This document shows positions 2,898 to 33,808 of a stretch of DNA of 33,808 nucleotides, piece by piece. The notes under the pieces are model-generated. The model made no database searches. It was not told the DNA's origin and saw only the letters and a program-made list of their open reading frames with translations. The stretch comes from Sphingomonadales bacterium (GTDB lineage Bacteria; Pseudomonadota; Alphaproteobacteria; Sphingomonadales; Sphingomonadaceae): assembly GCA_019750455.1 (NCBI GenBank), contig JAIEOM010000076.1, positions 1 to 33,808 on the forward strand, in the 5' to 3' direction. How positions within the stretch are numbered: position 1 is the first letter of the stretch; each line of letters opens with the position of its first letter. The position numbers were made by a program, and so were the translations under genes.

Positions 2898-4097
2898 ATG
2901 AGCTTCAAGACCCTCGATGATCTGCCCGCCGACCTCACCGGAGAAGTCGCTCTGGTGCGTGTCGACCTGAACCTTCCCATGAAGGACGGTTCGGCCACCG
3001 ATGTGACCCGCGTCGAGGCGGTGAAGCCGACCATCCTCGAACTCGCGGGCCGCGGGGCCAAGGTGCTGCTGCTCGCCCACTTCGGTCGCCCGGGCGGCCA
3101 GCGGTCTTCGACCCTTTCGACCAGCATGGTCGTGGGCGATGTCGAGCGCGTGCTGGGCGAGGAGATCATGTTCATCCCCGAAATCGCCGGGCCGGTGGTC
3201 GAACAGTCGATCGGCATCCTGCGCGCCGGAGATATCGGCCTACTCGACAACACCCGCTTCTGGCCGGGCGAGGAGGCGAATGATCCCAATCTCGCGCAGG
3301 CAATCGCTGCGCACGGGACGCTTTACGTGAACGACGCCTTCAGCGCCGCCCACCGCGCCCATGCGACTACGGAAGGCCTCGCGCACTTTCTGCCGGCCTA
3401 TGCGGGCCGTTCAATGGAGGCAGAGCTCAAGGCGCTGGACGCTGCGCTCGGCACGCCCGAACAGCCGGTTGCGGCGGTCGTGGGCGGGGCGAAGGTTTCG
3501 ACCAAGCTTGCCGTGCTCGAAAACCTTGTCGGCAAGGTGCAGCACCTCATTATCGGCGGGGGCATGGCCAACACCTTCCTCGCCGCACGCGGGGTGAATG
3601 TCGGGAAGTCTCTTTGCGAGCATGATCTGGCCCCGACGGTCACCGCGATCATGGACGAGGCCGAGCGTTCGGGTTGCACCGTGCACCTGCCCTATGACGT
3701 TGTCGTCGCGAAGGAATTTGCCGCCAACCCTGCGTCCCTCCGCGTCTGCAACGTCCACGAAGTGGCCGAAGATGAGATGATCCTCGATCTCGGCCCGCAG
3801 GCAGTGGAGGCGCTGGCCGATGTGCTCAAAACCTGCCGCACGCTGGTGTGGAACGGCCCGCTGGGCGCCTTCGAGACCGAGCCGTTCGATGCAGCCACCG
3901 TCGCTCTGGCGCGCACGGCTGCGGCGCTGACTCTGGAAGGCTCGCTTATCAGCGTGGCCGGGGGCGGGGATACGATCGCGGCGCTCGCCCATGCGGGCGC
4001 TTCGGAAGATTTTACCTATATTTCAACCGCTGGCGGCGCATTCCTCGAATGGATGGAAGGCCGCGTGCTGCCCGGCGTCGCCGCGCTGGAAGGCTGA
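2898..4097 (+). CDS. pgk: phosphoglycerate kinase
   Basis: [54 protein letters not shown]. Confidence 0.97.
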
Positions 4098-27122: not shown

Positions 27123-27157
27123 TTGCCAGCGCCGCGATGTTGGAACATAATGCGAAC
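27123..27157 (+). promoter_or_regulatory. LexA-controlled promoter of imuA
   Basis: -35 TTGCCA (27123-27128), 17-bp spacer, -10 CATAAT (27146-27151); LexA box GAAC-N7-GAAC (27143-27157) overlaps the -10. Confidence 0.88.
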
Positions 27158-27159
27158 AG

Positions 27160-27939
27160 ATGAGTCGTTCGCCCATGCCCTCTACCGTTTTCAGACCCTC
27201 ACCCGCGCGCGTGTTGGCGCGCGGCCTGCCCGAGCCGCGCTGGCGGCCCGGCCTTGTCGCGCAGCCGTTCCATTCGGAAATCTTCGCCCCGGCAGACGAG
27301 GCGAGCGGGGCGGGGCTGGCGCTGGCTCTGGCGCGTGACGCCTTGACGTCATCGGGAGAGGGGCGGGGCGAGGATGACCGTCAGGTGTTGTGGGTACAGG
27401 ACCGTGCAGCGATCAGGCAGGGCGGGCGGCCGTGCCTTGCGGGCCTGTCGCCGGAGCTTGCGCACCGCCTGATCCATGTCGCCGCGGCCACACCGGAGGA
27501 TGCCCTGTTTGCGCTGGAAGAAGGGCTCAAGTGCCGCGACATCGCCTGCGTGATCGGGGAGATCGCGGGCAACCCGCGCGCGCTGTCCTTCACTGCCTCG
27601 CGCCGGCTCAGCCTGACGGCCGAGCGCCACGGGGTCAGGCTGTGGCTGGTGCGCTTGGATGCGCAGCCCGATCTGTCCTCGGCCCGGATGCGCTGGCAGG
27701 CGCGCTCTGCCCCTTCCGCAGCCCCGCGCTGGAACCCCGCTGCCCCCGGGCCTGCCTCATGGCAGGCAGAACTGTTCCGCGCGCGAGCCCACGCGCCGGG
27801 CCAATGGATGCTGAGCGATGATGCAGGAACCCTGCGCATCCGCCACGATCCCGACCTCGACTCCGCTGCCGCGCCGGATCCTCGCTATCTGGCTCGCCCG
27901 ACTGTCGGTCGATCGCTGGCGGCGCGCACACACGCCTGA
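27160..27939 (+). CDS. imuA: ImuA-like SOS mutagenesis protein (start may be the internal ATG at 27175)
   Basis: RecA/SulA-related ImuA-type sequence immediately upstream of an ImuB-like polymerase; LexA-box promoter. Confidence 0.85.
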   Translation: MSRSPMPSTVFRPSPARVLARGLPEPRWRPGLVAQPFHSEIFAPADEASGAGLALALARDALTSSGEGRGEDDRQVLWVQDRAAIRQGGRPCLAGLSPELAHRLIHVAAATPEDALFALEEGLKCRDIACVIGEIAGNPRALSFTASRRLSLTAERHGVRLWLVRLDAQPDLSSARMRWQARSAPSAAPRWNPAAPGPASWQAELFRARAHAPGQWMLSDDAGTLRIRHDPDLDSAAAPDPRYLARPTVGRSLAARTHA

Positions 27940-29440
27940 GGCGGACACTGCCCCGACCGCGCTGATCCTCGAGACAGCGCACGGCCCGCGCATCACGGCT
28001 GCCAATCAGGCCGGCATCGCCGCAGGTGCGCGCCCCGGCATGCTGCTCGCCGATGCGCGGGCGCTGTGTCCCGAACTTGCTGCTGTCCCGGCCGATCCGG
28101 CGGGCGATCTTGCCGCACTCGAAAAGCTCGCCCTGTGGGCGCAGCGGTGGGGGCCGTGGAGCGCGCTCGACCCGCCCGATGGCCTGCTGGTCGATGTCAC
28201 CGGCGCCGCCCACCTGTTTGGGGGCGAGGAGCGGCTGCTCGGGGATGTCGCACGCGCCTTCGCCGCGCGGGGCTTCACCGTCCGGCCCGCGCTGGCACCC
28301 ACGGCAGGCGCGGCATGGGCGCTTTCGCATTATGGACGGGGGGCGGCGATCCTTGCCCCGCAAGATGATCCGCTGCGCCTGCTGGCCGATCTGCCGGTCG
28401 CGGCGCTACGGCTCGACGATGACGTGCTCACCGTGCTGCGCCGCCTTGGTATCAAGCGGCTCGGGGAGCTTGCCGGCGTGAGCGGCGCAGGCGATGATCC
28501 GGTGCAGGAGGCCGCCGCGCGCGATGCGCTGCGCCGCCGTTTCCGCAATCGCCATTCCCCCGCCGCCAATCCGCTGCTGCGCCTTGACCAGCTGCTCGGC
28601 CGCGTGCCGGAACCGCTGCTGCCGGTGATCGCGCGAGCCATGCCGCTGGTGCAGCGCCGGTTGATGGAGCCGCTGCGCCACCGCGCGCTGCTCGACACAG
28701 TCCTCGCCGATCTCGCCGCCGCCATGGTCCGCGAGCTCGAGGCGCGGGGCGAGGGGGCGCGGCGGCTCGAACTGGCGCTGTGGCGGGTCGATGGCGAGGT
28801 GCTGCAACGCCGCATCGAACTCGCCGCCGCCACCCGCGAGGCGGCGCACATCACCCGGCTGTTCGCCGCGCGGCTTGACGATGTCGACGCCGGATTCGGG
28901 ATCGAGATGGTGCAGCTGCGCGCCAGCTGGAGCGAGCCGCTGCACCTCGCACAGACCGATCTCGATGCTGCGGCAGAAGATCACGGCACCGCGCTGGCCG
29001 CCTGCATCGATCGGTTGACGGTGCGACTCGGGCCGAAAGCCGTGACCCGCCCGGTCTCCCGCGCCAGCCACATTCCCGAGCGCGCACAAGGCTGGCAGCC
29101 CCCGCTCGCGCCTGTGCCGGCAAGCCAGCAGGCGCTTGCCTTCCACACCCGGCCGCTGAAACTGCTCGACCGTCCGGAGCCGATCGCGGTGCTCTATGCC
29201 TCGCCCGACGGAATCCCCCAGCGTTTCCGCTGGCGCGGGGCGGTGCACGAGGTTGTGCGGGTCGAGGGGCCGGAGCGAATTGCGCCCGAATGGTGGCGCG
29301 AACGCTCCACCACGCGTCTGCGCGATTACTACCGGATCGAGGACGAGGCCGGGCGGCGCTACTGGATCTACCGCCTCGGCATTGCGGGCGACGGGCGGGG
29401 CGGGGTGCCCGACTGGTTTCTGCAAGGCCTGTGCGCCTGA
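27818..29440 (+). CDS. imuB: ImuB-like Y-family DNA polymerase homologue
   Basis: RRILAIWLARLSVDRW, GMLLADARALCPEL, GPWSALDPPDGLLVDVTGAAHLFGGEERLL; C-terminal YRIEDEAGRRYWIYRLG. Confidence 0.9.
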   Translation: MMQEPCASATIPTSTPLPRRILAIWLARLSVDRWRRAHTPEADTAPTALILETAHGPRITAANQAGIAAGARPGMLLADARALCPELAAVPADPAGDLAALEKLALWAQRWGPWSALDPPDGLLVDVTGAAHLFGGEERLLGDVARAFAARGFTVRPALAPTAGAAWALSHYGRGAAILAPQDDPLRLLADLPVAALRLDDDVLTVLRRLGIKRLGELAGVSGAGDDPVQEAAARDALRRRFRNRHSPAANPLLRLDQLLGRVPEPLLPVIARAMPLVQRRLMEPLRHRALLDTVLADLAAAMVRELEARGEGARRLELALWRVDGEVLQRRIELAAATREAAHITRLFAARLDDVDAGFGIEMVQLRASWSEPLHLAQTDLDAAAEDHGTALAACIDRLTVRLGPKAVTRPVSRASHIPERAQGWQPPLAPVPASQQALAFHTRPLKLLDRPEPIAVLYASPDGIPQRFRWRGAVHEVVRVEGPERIAPEWWRERSTTRLRDYYRIEDEAGRRYWIYRLGIAGDGRGGVPDWFLQGLCA

Positions 29441-29499: not shown

Positions 29500-29832
29500 A
29501 TGAACCTGCACTCGATCCCTCGTGGCGCCGAACGCCGGCCGATGAGCCTGACGGTGAAGAGCCGTGTGCGTTCGCGCGTAGTGTTCGTCGAACTGCTCGA
29601 TCTGTCCGAAGGCGGCTGCAAGATCCGCGCGAAGCCGGGCTTTGCCGAAGTGGGCGACCGGGTGACGATGAAGGTCAACGGCATCAACACCCCGCTCGGC
29701 GCGGTCGCCTGGATCGAGGGCGGACTGGCCGGAGTCGCCTTCGAAGGCGCAATGCACCCCGCGGTGCTCGATTTCCTGTGTCAGGGCGGTAGCGCACTTC
29801 AGGAAAGCCCCAGGCTGCGACGCATCCTCTGA
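29500..29832 (+). CDS. PilZ-domain protein (predicted c-di-GMP receptor)
   Basis: Start MNLHSIPRGAERRP; RGAER matches RxxxR and DLSEGG matches [D/N]xSxxG. Confidence 0.8.
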   Translation: MNLHSIPRGAERRPMSLTVKSRVRSRVVFVELLDLSEGGCKIRAKPGFAEVGDRVTMKVNGINTPLGAVAWIEGGLAGVAFEGAMHPAVLDFLCQGGSALQESPRLRRIL

Positions 29833-29854: not shown

Positions 29855-29887
29855 TTGGCAGGAGGGCTGTTGGAACATATAAGGAAC
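29855..29887 (+). promoter_or_regulatory. LexA-controlled promoter of the radical SAM-udgX-dnaE2 unit
   Basis: -35 TTGGCA (29855-29860), 17-bp spacer, -10 TATAAG (29878-29883); LexA box GAAC-N7-GAAC (29873-29887) overlaps the -10. Confidence 0.88.
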
Positions 29888-29912: not shown

Positions 29913-31151
29913 ATGGTCCAGCAGTCACTTCGCCAGAAGCTCGAAATCCTTGCCGACGCGGCAAAATATGATGCCTCCTGCGCGTCCTCCGGCACGGCGA
30001 AGAAGAATTCGCTGGGCGGAAAAGGCGTGGGCTCGACCGAGGGGATGGGCATCTGCCACGCCTATGCGCCGGACGGGCGGTGCATCTCGCTTCTCAAGAT
30101 CCTGCTGACCAACCACTGCATCTTCGATTGCCATTACTGCATCAACCGCAAGAGCTCGAATGTGGCGCGGGCGCGGTTCACCCCGCAGGAGGTGGTGGAC
30201 CTGACGCTGAACTTCTACCGCCGCAACTATATCGAAGGGCTGTTCCTTTCTTCAGGCATCGTCAAGAACGCCAACCACACGATGGAACAGCTGGTCGAAG
30301 TCGCCCGCATCCTGCGGGAGGAGCATGATTTTCGCGGCTACATCCACCTCAAGACCATCCCCGAGGCCGATGCCGAGATCATTCACGCTGCGGGCCTTTA
30401 TGCCGACCGCGTCTCGATCAATGTCGAACTGCCCACGGACACGGGCCTCACACGCCTCGCACCCGACAAGAACGCGCGGCAGATCGAGGGTGCGATGGGC
30501 CGCACCAAGGCGCGGATCGTGCAGGCCAAGGACGAAAGGAAACGCTTCCGCCACGCGCCCCGCTTTGCGCCGGCGGGCCAATCGACCCAGATGATCGTCG
30601 GCGCGGACGATGCCTCGGATAGCGCGATCATCGGCAAGGCGAGCCGTCTTTATGGCGATTTTGGCCTCAGGCGCGTTTATTACAGCGCCTTCTCGCCCAT
30701 CCCCGATGCCTCGGCAGTACTGCCGCTGAAGCGTCCCCCGCTGCTGCGGGAGCATCGCCTGTACCAGTCGGACTGGCTGATGCGCTTCTACGGTTTCGCC
30801 CCGCAGGAGGTGGCGGACGCGGCGGAGGCGGATGGCAATCTGCCGCTCGATATCGACCCCAAGCTGGCCTGGGCGCTGAAGTTCCGGGAGAGCTTCCCGG
30901 TCGATGTGAACCGCGCGCCCAAGGAGCTGCTGTTGCGGGTGCCGGGGTTGGGCACCAAGGCGGTCGCCCGCATCCTCGCTTCGCGCCGGCACCGGAACTT
31001 GCGCCTTGATGATGTGGCGCGGCTGACGGCCTCGGTGACCAAGGTGCGCCCCTTCATCTGCACCATCGACTGGCGACCGACGCTGCTCACCGACCGGGCG
31101 GATCTGCGGGGGCTGCTGACGCCGAGATCCGAGCAGCTGGAGCTGTTCTGA
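29913..31151 (+). CDS. putative DNA modification/repair radical SAM protein
   Basis: CIFDCHYC matches radical SAM CxxxCxxC; C-terminal helix-hairpin-helix APKELLLRVPGLGTKAVARIL. Confidence 0.9.
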   Translation: MVQQSLRQKLEILADAAKYDASCASSGTAKKNSLGGKGVGSTEGMGICHAYAPDGRCISLLKILLTNHCIFDCHYCINRKSSNVARARFTPQEVVDLTLNFYRRNYIEGLFLSSGIVKNANHTMEQLVEVARILREEHDFRGYIHLKTIPEADAEIIHAAGLYADRVSINVELPTDTGLTRLAPDKNARQIEGAMGRTKARIVQAKDERKRFRHAPRFAPAGQSTQMIVGADDASDSAIIGKASRLYGDFGLRRVYYSAFSPIPDASAVLPLKRPPLLREHRLYQSDWLMRFYGFAPQEVADAAEADGNLPLDIDPKLAWALKFRESFPVDVNRAPKELLLRVPGLGTKAVARILASRRHRNLRLDDVARLTASVTKVRPFICTIDWRPTLLTDRADLRGLLTPRSEQLELF

Positions 31152-32599
31152 TGACCGCCATGCAGCATGTCTCCCTCGGCTCCCACTACGCCGTGCACCT
31201 GCCTGCGCCCGACGACTTCATCTTCTGGCGTGAGCGGGCGCGGGGGCTGGTGCAGTGCGATGTGCCGCCCGACCGGGTCAGCTGGATCGAGCCGGGCGGG
31301 ACGGGCGATCTGTTCGCCTCGGAAGGTCCTTCACGCGGCGAGAAGCGCTTGCCGGTGCCCCCCGCAGACCCGCGCCCAGTGCGCGCCAGCCAGCGGTTCC
31401 TCACCATCGCCCGCAGCGCCGCGCTCCACTCCGATCCCGCACGCTTCGGGCTGCTTTACCGCGTGCTGTGGCGATTGCAGCGCAATCCGCGGCTGATGGA
31501 GGACAAGGCCGACCCCGAGGTGCGCCGGATCGAGGAGCTCGCCAAATCGGTCCGCCGCGATGCGCACAAGATGCATGCCTTCGTGCGCTTCCGCGAGGTA
31601 GCCGAGGAAGACGGCACGCCCCACTTCGTCGCCTGGTTCGAGCCCGATCACCACATCGTGCGCGCCGAAGCGGCGTTCTTCATGCGCCGCTTCGCCAATA
31701 TGCGCTGGTCGATCCTCACCCCGCGCGGGAGCATCCACTGGGACGGCGAGGTGATGCGCGAAGGCCCGCCCGCGCGGCGCGAGGATGCCCCCGGCGGCGA
31801 TCCCGTCGAGGACCTGTGGCGCTCCTACTACGCCTCGATCTTCAACCCCGCGCGATTGAAGGTCGGCGCGATGCTCTCGGAGATGCCGAAGAAATACTGG
31901 AAGAACCTGCCCGAGGCCGAGCTGATCCCGCAGCTGATTGCAGGCGCGCAGGCGCGCGAGGCGGCGATGGTCAAGGCAGGGGAGCGCGAAGAGCGGAGGC
32001 GGCCTGCCTCGCTCGCCGAAGTCGCGCAAGGCGCAGCCGCCTGTCGGGATTGTCCGATCGCCGATTGCGGCACCCGCGCGGTGGCGGGAGAGGGGGCACT
32101 GGACGCGGCCCTGATGATCGTCGGCGAACAGCCCGGCGATCAGGAAGACCTTGCCGGACGGCCTTTCGTCGGTCCGGCGGGGCAGTTGCTGGACGATCAT
32201 CTGACGCATGCCGGGATCGACCGCAACGCCGCCTACGTCACCAACGCGGTCAAGCACTTCAAGTTCGCCTGGAAAGGCAAGCACCGGCTCCACCAGTCGC
32301 CGGCCGCAAAGGAGATCGATACCTGCCGCTGGTGGCTTGAGGCCGAGCGGGCGCTGGTGCAACCCCGCCTAGTGCTGGCGCTGGGGGCGAGTGCCGCGCG
32401 GGGCCTGCTGGGCCGCACCGTCAGCGTCGGGCGCGAGCGGGGACGGGCGATCATGCTCGATGACGGGGCGGAGCTATGGGTGACTGTCCACCCATCCTAC
32501 CTCCTGCGCCTAGAGGGCGCGGCGCGCGAGGAGCAGGCGCGTCTGTTCGCGGCGGACCTCGCGGCAGTGAAGGAGCGACTTGCGGAGCTGGCGGGGTGA
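31151..32599 (+). CDS. udgX: DUF4130-UdgX fusion: uracil-DNA-binding/glycosylase-family protein
   Basis: N-terminal DUF4130-type region; C-terminal family 4-like UDG motifs GEQPGDQEDLAGRPFVGPAG, TNAVKHFKF, KHRLHQ, HPSYLLRL; ATG overlaps the upstream stop. Confidence 0.88.
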   Translation: MTAMQHVSLGSHYAVHLPAPDDFIFWRERARGLVQCDVPPDRVSWIEPGGTGDLFASEGPSRGEKRLPVPPADPRPVRASQRFLTIARSAALHSDPARFGLLYRVLWRLQRNPRLMEDKADPEVRRIEELAKSVRRDAHKMHAFVRFREVAEEDGTPHFVAWFEPDHHIVRAEAAFFMRRFANMRWSILTPRGSIHWDGEVMREGPPARREDAPGGDPVEDLWRSYYASIFNPARLKVGAMLSEMPKKYWKNLPEAELIPQLIAGAQAREAAMVKAGEREERRRPASLAEVAQGAAACRDCPIADCGTRAVAGEGALDAALMIVGEQPGDQEDLAGRPFVGPAGQLLDDHLTHAGIDRNAAYVTNAVKHFKFAWKGKHRLHQSPAAKEIDTCRWWLEAERALVQPRLVLALGASAARGLLGRTVSVGRERGRAIMLDDGAELWVTVHPSYLLRLEGAAREEQARLFAADLAAVKERLAELAG

Positions 32600-32600
32600 A

Positions 32601-33808
32601 ATGCCCGACGCTCCGCTCACCCCCGACAAGCGCACGCTCGATATCGACCCTACCGATATCGCGCCGCCCGAACGCGCGCCGTTCGTCGAACTGGGCCTTG
32701 TCAGCTGCTTCAGCTTCCTGCGCGGGGCATCCGATGCCGTCGATCTCGTGCTCGCTGCCCATGTGCAGGGTTACGACGCGTTAGGAATCGCCGATGTGAA
32801 CTCGATGGCCGGCGTGGTGCGCATCCATACCGAGGCCAGAACGCTGAAGCTGCGCCCGGTGATCGGCTGCCGGATCGAGACGGTCGAGGGCCTCGCCTTC
32901 CTCGCCTATCCCGAGGACCGCGCCGCCTATGGCCGGCTGTGCCGCCTCATCAGTGCCGGGCGGATGCAGACGCTTTCCGGCGAATGGCAGGACAAGGGGG
33001 TGTGCGAGATCGATCTGGCGATGCTGGCCGCCCATGCCGAGGGTGTGCAACTGATCCTGCTGCCGCCGGATGATCTGGAGGCGCGGTTCACGCTTCGGGT
33101 GCCGAGCAACGTGATCCCGTTCCGTCGTCCCGGACTTGATCCGGGACCGCTTGCCGACGGCGATCCCGGCTTGCGCCGGGATGACGAGAGGGACTTGCCG
33201 TTCCCAGACCTCCTCCTCCATCTCGTCCGCCAGCTTCCCACCCTCAGGCACATCGCCGCCAGCTATCTCTACCGCGGCGACGACATCGCGCGGATCGAGC
33301 GGCTCGACCAACTTGCCCGCGACCACGGCCTGAGCCTGCTCGCCACCAACGACGTGCATTACCACGCCCCCGAACGCCGCGCGCTTCAGGACGTGATGAC
33401 CGCGATCCGGCACAAGACCACGGTCGCGGCGGCCGGGCATCTGCTCTATCCCAATGCCGAGCGGCACCTCAAATCCCCGGCGCAGATCCAGCGCCTGTTC
33501 GCCCGCTGGCCCCATGCCATCGCCGCTGCCCGCGAGGTGGCGGACCGGTGCCGCTTCAGCCTCGACGAGCTGCGCTACGAATATCCCGAGGAAATCTATC
33601 CCGACGGCCAGAGCCCGCAGGCCTTCCTCGAAAGCGAGGTCTGGAAGGGGGCAGGGCGGCGCTATCCCTCGGGTGTGCCCGATAGCGTGCGCCATACGCT
33701 GGAGCGCGAGCTCGCGTTGATCACCAGGCTCGATCTCGCGCGCTATTTCCTCACCATCAAGGACATCGTCGATTTCGCGCGGGGGTGCGATCCGCCGATA
33801 TTGTGCCA
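32601..33808 (+). CDS. dnaE2: error-prone DNA polymerase DnaE2/ImuC, 3' end outside the window
   Basis: Not in the supplied ORF track because no stop lies in the window; MPDAPLTPDKRTLDIDP...FVELGLVSCFSFLRGASDAVDLVLAAHVQGYDALGIADVNSMAGVVR; LATNDVHYHAPERRALQDVMTAIR. Confidence 0.93.
   Translation, partial: MPDAPLTPDKRTLDIDPTDIAPPERAPFVELGLVSCFSFLRGASDAVDLVLAAHVQGYDALGIADVNSMAGVVRIHTEARTLKLRPVIGCRIETVEGLAFLAYPEDRAAYGRLCRLISAGRMQTLSGEWQDKGVCEIDLAMLAAHAEGVQLILLPPDDLEARFTLRVPSNVIPFRRPGLDPGPLADGDPGLRRDDERDLPFPDLLLHLVRQLPTLRHIAASYLYRGDDIARIERLDQLARDHGLSLLATNDVHYHAPERRALQDVMTAIRHKTTVAAAGHLLYPNAERHLKSPAQIQRLFARWPHAIAAAREVADRCRFSLDELRYEYPEEIYPDGQSPQAFLESEVWKGAGRRYPSGVPDSVRHTLERELALITRLDLARYFLTIKDIVDFARGCDPPILC
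33126..33188. repeat. REP-like double palindrome inside the dnaE2 open frame
   Basis: Hairpins gtcccgga-cttga-tccgggac (33128-33148) and atcccgg-cttgcg-ccgggat (33164-33183), in mutually inverted arrangement. Confidence 0.85.

Follow-up and report, generated by a model that had tools for sequence, protein, structure and literature searches.

A LexA-boxed radical SAM-DUF4130-UdgX unit joined to dnaE2 in a Sphingomonadales genome, with a conserved tail predicted to bind the sliding clamp

The 33,808-nucleotide (nt) stretch of DNA described here (the window) is the entire contig C273 of the 3.06-Mb draft genome of a Sphingomonadales bacterium, whose closest named relatives are Erythrobacter, Porphyrobacter and Qipengyuania. 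Its final 6.7 kb carry on one strand imuA, imuB, a PilZ-domain gene, a gene for a radical S-adenosylmethionine (SAM) protein, a gene for a DUF4130-UdgX fusion protein, and dnaE2. We propose that the radical SAM protein and DUF4130, with or without UdgX, probably constitute an SOS-induced, clamp-docked module for lesion processing that works at the sites of the ImuAB-DnaE2 mutasome. An earlier inspection of the letters alone (the sequence-only reading) had described the radical SAM, DUF4130-UdgX and dnaE2 genes as one SOS unit and had placed their products in one linear pathway; the unit is right for this lineage, but the pathway does not hold as a general role, as shown below.

The three genes are packed as that reading had noted, and the open reading frame (ORF) coordinates confirm it: the radical SAM stop and the udgX start overlap by 1 nt at position 31151 (TGATG), and the udgX stop, which ends at 32599, is separated by a 1-nt gap from the dnaE2 ATG at 32601. 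The dnaE2 start lies exactly 1 nt past udgX in 8/19 loci. What had gone unreported are the LexA boxes. The window contains exactly two GTTCN7GTTC sites, and both are at operon starts, before imuA and before the radical SAM gene; recA and uvrA of the same genome are also preceded by exact copies. By itself the motif is common enough (0.63 sites expected per window, and 74 genome-wide versus 62 for the reversed pattern) to be weak evidence; what counts is where the boxes lie and how well they are conserved. An alphaproteobacterial LexA box was found at most 150 nt upstream of the radical SAM gene in 100 of 120 distinct regions from relatives, most commonly starting 17 nt before the beginning of the protein match, against a background of 64/13,162 windows (0.5%) and 0/120 regions for the scrambled or reversed motif. 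In 13 further regions, all non-Alphaproteobacteria from other proteobacterial classes, an Escherichia coli-type CTG-N10-CAG box occupies the same place. Since the type of box differs by lineage while its position is kept, the operator changed with the lineage and the gene kept a LexA-type box in front of it. The operator of the alphaproteobacterial LexA regulon is thus present upstream of this gene and conserved across species. None of the 19 collinear loci linked to imuAB-dnaE2 has a LexA box between udgX and dnaE2, and dnaE2 therefore most likely relies on the box before the radical SAM gene together with read-through from imuAB. These observations support the prediction that the radical SAM gene, udgX and dnaE2 form an SOS-type transcription unit with a LexA box of its own.

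Other LexA-like sites were seen in the course of this comparison. The source genome has a second radical SAM gene, of the PA0069 family (443 bits; G000:C278:34500-35590, L027:1701-2792), which begins within the last bases of, or just past, an exact LexA box (GTTCCGTAAATGTTC), so the genome may hold two unrelated SOS radical SAM enzymes. A protein with an S24-peptidase domain and weak helix-turn-helix and LexA/UmuD-like matches (G000:C69, L023:3-614) lies beside two GTTCN7GTTC boxes and is a candidate for the LexA-type repressor of the source genome. Finally, in L187, a distant relative encoded on a scaffold of faecal origin, the sequence ACAAACAAATGTTCG upstream of position 3001 is close to the Bacillus-type LexA box, and SOS control may thereby reach Firmicutes-like bacteria.

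The C-terminus of the radical SAM protein reads ...EQLELF, in agreement with the bacterial beta-clamp-binding consensus QL[S/D]LF, which is mostly located at the C-terminus (PMC3716654). Q[LM]xL[FLWI] occurs within the last 20 residues of 120 of the 134 distinct complete relatives, versus 1.3 expected from shuffling those residues, and only two proteins have it elsewhere; when relatives are reduced at 70% identity, a broadened motif is found in 14 of 21 representatives (0.36 expected). The glutamine of the motif is invariant throughout the 139 sequences of the alignment, four of which are much more distant and read QLRFDF, QLSLGF, QLSFF and QLSMF, the last two (L187 and L188) sitting farther from the C-terminus. 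In the AlphaFold2 model the tail (residues 407-412) has a predicted local distance difference test (pLDDT) score below 50 and is probably flexible. The ImuB protein of the window also has a clamp-like hexamer of the QxxLxF type, QQALAF, and a similar motif is present there in most collinear relatives; in mycobacteria the clamp motif of ImuB is essential for mutasome function (PMC10421592). The family-wide conservation of the tail leads us to a strong prediction that the radical SAM protein binds the beta sliding clamp through its C-terminal motif, which would also favor the idea, already put forward in the sequence-only reading, that its chemistry is directed at DNA.

In regards to the link with the mutasome, a lack of conserved co-occurrence had been named beforehand as grounds for rejecting the unit, and this is not what we observed. 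In the family-level sample, where the radical SAM protein scored above cut-off in 130/201 genomes, gene order and a similar spacing recur in 42 of the 70 genomes in which it and a DnaE2 like that of the window were both found, so that the arrangement is not a matter of chance: dnaE2 follows the radical SAM match by 1.45-2.5 kb in the same orientation, a distance of about one gene. The collinear linkage with imuB-dnaE2 is that of Erythrobacter/Novosphingobium. Five genomes of group f155 have imuA-imuB-dnaE2 and radical SAM-DUF4130-UdgX in divergent orientation, the intergenic region between them holding a single LexA box, and Henriciella pelagia has the same divergent layout with two LexA boxes. 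Linked loci fall at three separate places on the radical SAM tree and in two geometries. Moreover, in a sample of 349 genomes of the phylum, DnaE2 was found in 62/70 genomes with the radical SAM protein versus 84/279 others (p=2e-19, kinship ignored). Given the linkage at three places and this co-occurrence, the comparison of genomes favors a functional association of the radical SAM pair with the ImuAB-DnaE2 mutasome, though shared SOS control may account for part of the pattern.

The radical SAM gene was also found on 164 plasmid records, which means that the module moves between replicons. The records include NZ_CP020441.2 and NZ_CP081087.1, and in the two that were examined a UdgX gene follows it; on a Leisingera plasmid the radical SAM gene is near repABC. 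A phage origin was rejected, as the matches in phage collections looked like bacterial chromosome (glyS/glyQ neighbors) or were unannotated faecal scaffolds.

The family assignments of the sequence-only reading are borne out by the profile scores. The radical SAM protein matches TIGR03916 with 576.5 bits (cut-off 343.5) over profile positions 1-393 of 415, this being its only NCBIfam match, and it has both the CxxxCxxC motif and the adjacent TIGR03915/DUF4130 gene that go with this family. At NCBI such a protein goes by 'putative DNA modification/repair radical SAM protein', a label of the kind that the sequence-only reading quoted, while its neighbor goes by 'UdgX family uracil-DNA binding protein'. 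Of its seven cysteines, six are invariant across 139 sequences, namely C69, C73 and C76 of the radical SAM motif and C23, C48 and C57, and H49 is invariant as well (139/139). The three additional cysteines match the number that an auxiliary cluster requires, and they probably hold a second iron-sulfur (Fe-S) or other metal cluster, judging from their invariance. The AlphaFold2 model has a mean pLDDT of 85, and its nearest solved folds are those of HydE, HydG, ThiH, lipoyl synthase, biotin synthase and others, with E values down to 4e-7 and TM-scores to the query mostly of 0.3-0.4. Several of these enzymes bear auxiliary clusters. A role in anti-phage defence was set aside, since neither this protein nor the DUF4130-UdgX protein matched any family in a PADLOC-DB scan.

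Its partner carries both TIGR03915 (222 bits, cut-off 112) and TIGR03914 (312 bits, cut-off 190) in one protein. Among the 349 genomes of the phylum, DUF4130 is present in 70/70 genomes with the radical SAM protein above cut-off, and DUF4130 without it occurs in just three genomes, which all belong to group f155. The radical SAM protein and DUF4130 are thus an obligate pair and the core of the system, UdgX is accessory, and the mutasome is a recurrent neighbor. UdgX proteins are recognized by motif A, GEQPG with Q53, by R107 and H109 of the R-loop, and by motif B, HPS..LR, and the UdgX of Mycobacterium smegmatis (MsmUdgX) excises uracil and forms a stable covalent His-C1' adduct through H109 (PMC10359453). 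When aligned to MsmUdgX, the window protein has all signature residues intact: GEQPG at 325-329, R379, H381 and HPSYLLR. The structures found by Foldseek for it are dominated by UdgX and other uracil-DNA glycosylases, and the UdgX matches, MsmUdgX included, show 46-49% identity. It differs from MsmUdgX in being fused behind DUF4130 and in an R-loop that reads KHRLH, not KRRIH; most relatives have a KRRIH-like loop, and GEQPGD, the R-loop histidine and motif B are kept in most of 104 UdgX relatives.

The three genomes with DUF4130 and no TIGR03916 match are G424, G440 and G509. In G440 and G509, a partial match to the DUF4130 model is about 3 kb from dnaE2, which suggests decay of the radical SAM-DUF4130 pair beside the mutasome. 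In L156, from another proteobacterial class, the UdgX R-loop reads GGPNSRAVTRKHATP where GKRRIH is expected, with DUF4130 intact, so covalent capture may be altered.

The explanation that best joins these observations would work as follows. Cleavage of LexA would turn on the radical SAM gene, udgX and dnaE2 jointly, and imuAB from their own box. The radical SAM protein would dock on the DNA-loaded beta sliding clamp by its QLELF tail, by analogy with mycobacterial ImuB, and would carry out adenosyl-radical chemistry at a stalled or gapped site, with a damaged or modified base as its target; a second metal cluster, probably held at C23/C48/C57, would take part in this chemistry. DUF4130 would act as its dedicated partner, and UdgX, if it behaves like MsmUdgX, would excise uracil and remain covalently on the abasic site, thereby shielding it. 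DnaE2 with ImuAB would then fill in across the remaining sites. A bolder version, which we offer only tentatively, is that TIGR03916 proteins are clamp-tethered, two-cluster enzymes that go beyond the reversal of a photoproduct by chemically modifying or converting damaged bases at SOS gaps, and form with DUF4130 and UdgX an extended mutasome; such a complex might choose between repairing a site, shielding it, or handing it to DnaE2.

Several observations weigh against this explanation. The clamp motif is short, and it is replaced by QLGFG in five related proteins of the divergent geometry and by QASLF in three others. Residues 23-46 have a pLDDT below 50, so that the candidate auxiliary site cannot be inspected in three dimensions. 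While the CxxxCxxC motif pointed out by the sequence-only reading is confirmed as C69-C73-C76, the C-terminal helix-hairpin-helix (HhH) that it reported is weak (PF12836 at 25.2 bits, under the cut-off of 27), with a profile match of E=0.014 to the HhH structure of ComEA. UdgX motif A, present in 104 distinct DUF4130 proteins, is missing from 26 complete ones, a few of which have UdgX as a separate adjacent ORF (e.g. L053), and several loci have no UdgX within the flanks of about 7 kb of the radical SAM-DUF4130 genes. With UdgX so often absent, a path from the radical SAM protein to UdgX and then to DnaE2 cannot be general, and this part of the sequence-only reading finds no support. Likewise, dnaE2 belongs to a conserved unit in this lineage but not at large, since 82 of 106 fully scored radical SAM loci are not linked to it; the linked fraction among the 80 named loci should not be read as a general frequency, as these were the loci closest to the query. 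Finally, shared SOS control could by itself favor clustering and explain part of the linkage.

This last point leads to the alternative that survives best, although we consider it doubtful: co-regulation only, where radical SAM-DUF4130-UdgX would repair DNA on its own and without error, by base excision or direct reversal, and its adjacency to dnaE2 would be mere clustering of a regulon. Most radical SAM-DUF4130(-UdgX) loci do occur by themselves, each preceded by a LexA box of its own, and such pairs are also found alone on plasmids; DnaE2 is missing at the cut-off used from 8 of the 70 radical SAM genomes of the phylum sample, and the LexA box of the window unit is separate from that of imuAB. 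Against this alternative stand a linkage that is specific to imuAB-dnaE2 at three places of the tree and in two geometries and the far higher frequency of DnaE2 in radical SAM genomes, and the predicted clamp docking would bring the radical SAM protein and the mutasome to one place.

A second alternative is that the radical SAM protein is a direct-reversal enzyme like spore photoproduct lyase (SplB). Spore photoproduct lyase uses one cluster, at variance with the three extra invariant cysteines that suggest a second one here, and it is absent from the 50 best folds for the radical SAM protein. The other SOS-boxed radical SAM protein of the genome, of the PA0069 family, has no significant similarity to it either. 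The alternative draws on the presence of a radical SAM protein in a DNA-repair context and on the treatment of the DUF4130 network by Aravind et al. 2013, where the DUF4130-linked protein is called SplB-like (PMC3765255); our sequence and fold comparisons disagree with that label, with TIGR03916 as the sole NCBIfam match, and an SplB or photolyase identity is therefore unsupported and, in our opinion, unlikely. Least of all would we expect the radical SAM-DUF4130 pair to act before DnaE2 by removing or repairing DNA-protein crosslinks, be it the covalent adduct of UdgX or others: UdgX does make a stable His-C1' adduct (PMC10359453), and in the fusion protein it is joined to DUF4130 next to the radical SAM gene, but the pair persists in many loci without UdgX, as in the 26 proteins mentioned above.

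The clamp-docked module proposed here has a core that is not new, since both the radical SAM-DUF4130(-UdgX) pair and its control by the SOS response have been described before. The window genes are like the described system (TIGR03916/TIGR03915/TIGR03914; COG4277-COG1573, where COG4277 is presumably the TIGR03916 radical SAM protein) in scores, adjacency, order and fusion, and differ from it in lying inside an imuA-imuB-dnaE2 cassette, closely coupled to dnaE2. Sanchez-Osuna et al. 2021 reported a two-gene COG1573-COG4277 SOS operon in Bacteroidetes, with a putative function in base excision repair, and cite earlier reports of SOS control of these genes in Verrucomicrobia and Alphaproteobacteria (PMC8565304). 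In its treatment of DUF4130, the paper of Aravind et al. 2013 places the domain in SOS neighborhoods with radical SAM proteins and uracil-DNA glycosylases, within the ImuB/DnaE2 network, and we found no mention of a clamp motif in that part of it (PMC3765255). With the ImuA-ImuB-DnaE2 mutasome, the system shares the locus, LexA control and the polymerase, and ImuB too uses a clamp-binding motif (PMC10421592). The classical operon of Caulobacter is imuAB dnaE2 (PMC1839093), whereas here radical SAM-DUF4130-UdgX and its own LexA box part imuB from dnaE2. No description of clamp binding by the radical SAM protein, of its clamp motif or of the cysteine triad was found in the literature searched, and as far as that literature shows, the family-wide clamp motif, the invariant second set of cysteines, the finding in a single analysis that the operator is conserved under two LexA dialects, and a linkage to imuA-imuB-dnaE2 that recurs in different arrangements are new.

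The clamp tail and the extra cysteines turn 'putative DNA modification/repair' into testable statements of place, timing, partners and chemistry: the place would be the loaded clamp, the timing the SOS response, the partners DUF4130 always and UdgX and the mutasome often, and the chemistry that of an enzyme with a probable second cluster. If the module works as proposed, induced mutagenesis in bacteria with ImuAB-DnaE2 involves a radical enzyme hitherto not considered. If even the extended mutasome, which we propose tentatively, proved real, it would link translesion synthesis to radical SAM chemistry of a new class that acts on DNA.

Table 1. Positions of the genes, LexA boxes and motifs in the window.
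Feature	Position	Strand	Basis
LexA box GTTCGCATTATGTTC directly upstream of imuA	27143..27157	-	exact GTTCN7GTTC
imuA (divergent)	27160..27939	+	NF033429 24 bits, below cut-off; assigned by position before imuB and synteny
imuB, inactive-type Y-family polymerase hub	27818..29440	+	IMS, IMS_C and DUF6504 domains
PilZ-domain gene between imuB and radical SAM gene	29500..29832	+	domain match
LexA box GTTCCTTATATGTTC upstream of radical SAM gene	29873..29887	-	exact GTTCN7GTTC
TIGR03916 radical SAM protein, 412 aa	29913..31151	+	
Candidate auxiliary metal/Fe-S site, codons C23, C48, H49, C57	29979..30083	+	invariance 139/139
Radical SAM CxxxCxxC (C69, C73, C76)	30117..30140	+	invariance 139/139
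Helix-hairpin-helix, residues 329-360	30897..30992	+	PF12836 below cut-off; ComEA HhH E=0.014
C-terminal QLELF of radical SAM protein	31134..31148	+	fits beta-clamp-binding consensus QL[S/D]LF
DUF4130-UdgX fusion, 482 aa	31151..32599	+	
DUF4130 domain	31439..31915	+	TIGR03915/PF13566
UdgX domain	31922..32569	+	GEQPG, R-loop KHRLH, HPSYLLR
UdgX R-loop KHRLH	32279..32293	+	R379 and H381 align with R107 and H109 of MsmUdgX
dnaE2, N-terminal 402 aa	32601..33808	+	cut by contig end

The assembly splits dnaE2. The part in the window is truncated by the contig end after 402 amino acids (aa); it matches PRK05672 with 277 bits and covers profile positions 4-350, and a later portion at the start of contig C240 (G000:C240:10-1947) covers positions 463-1047, with about 110 profile positions between the two pieces uncovered. 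The PilZ-domain gene between imuB and the radical SAM gene has no obvious role in repair and is kept in only part of the Erythrobacter-like relatives.

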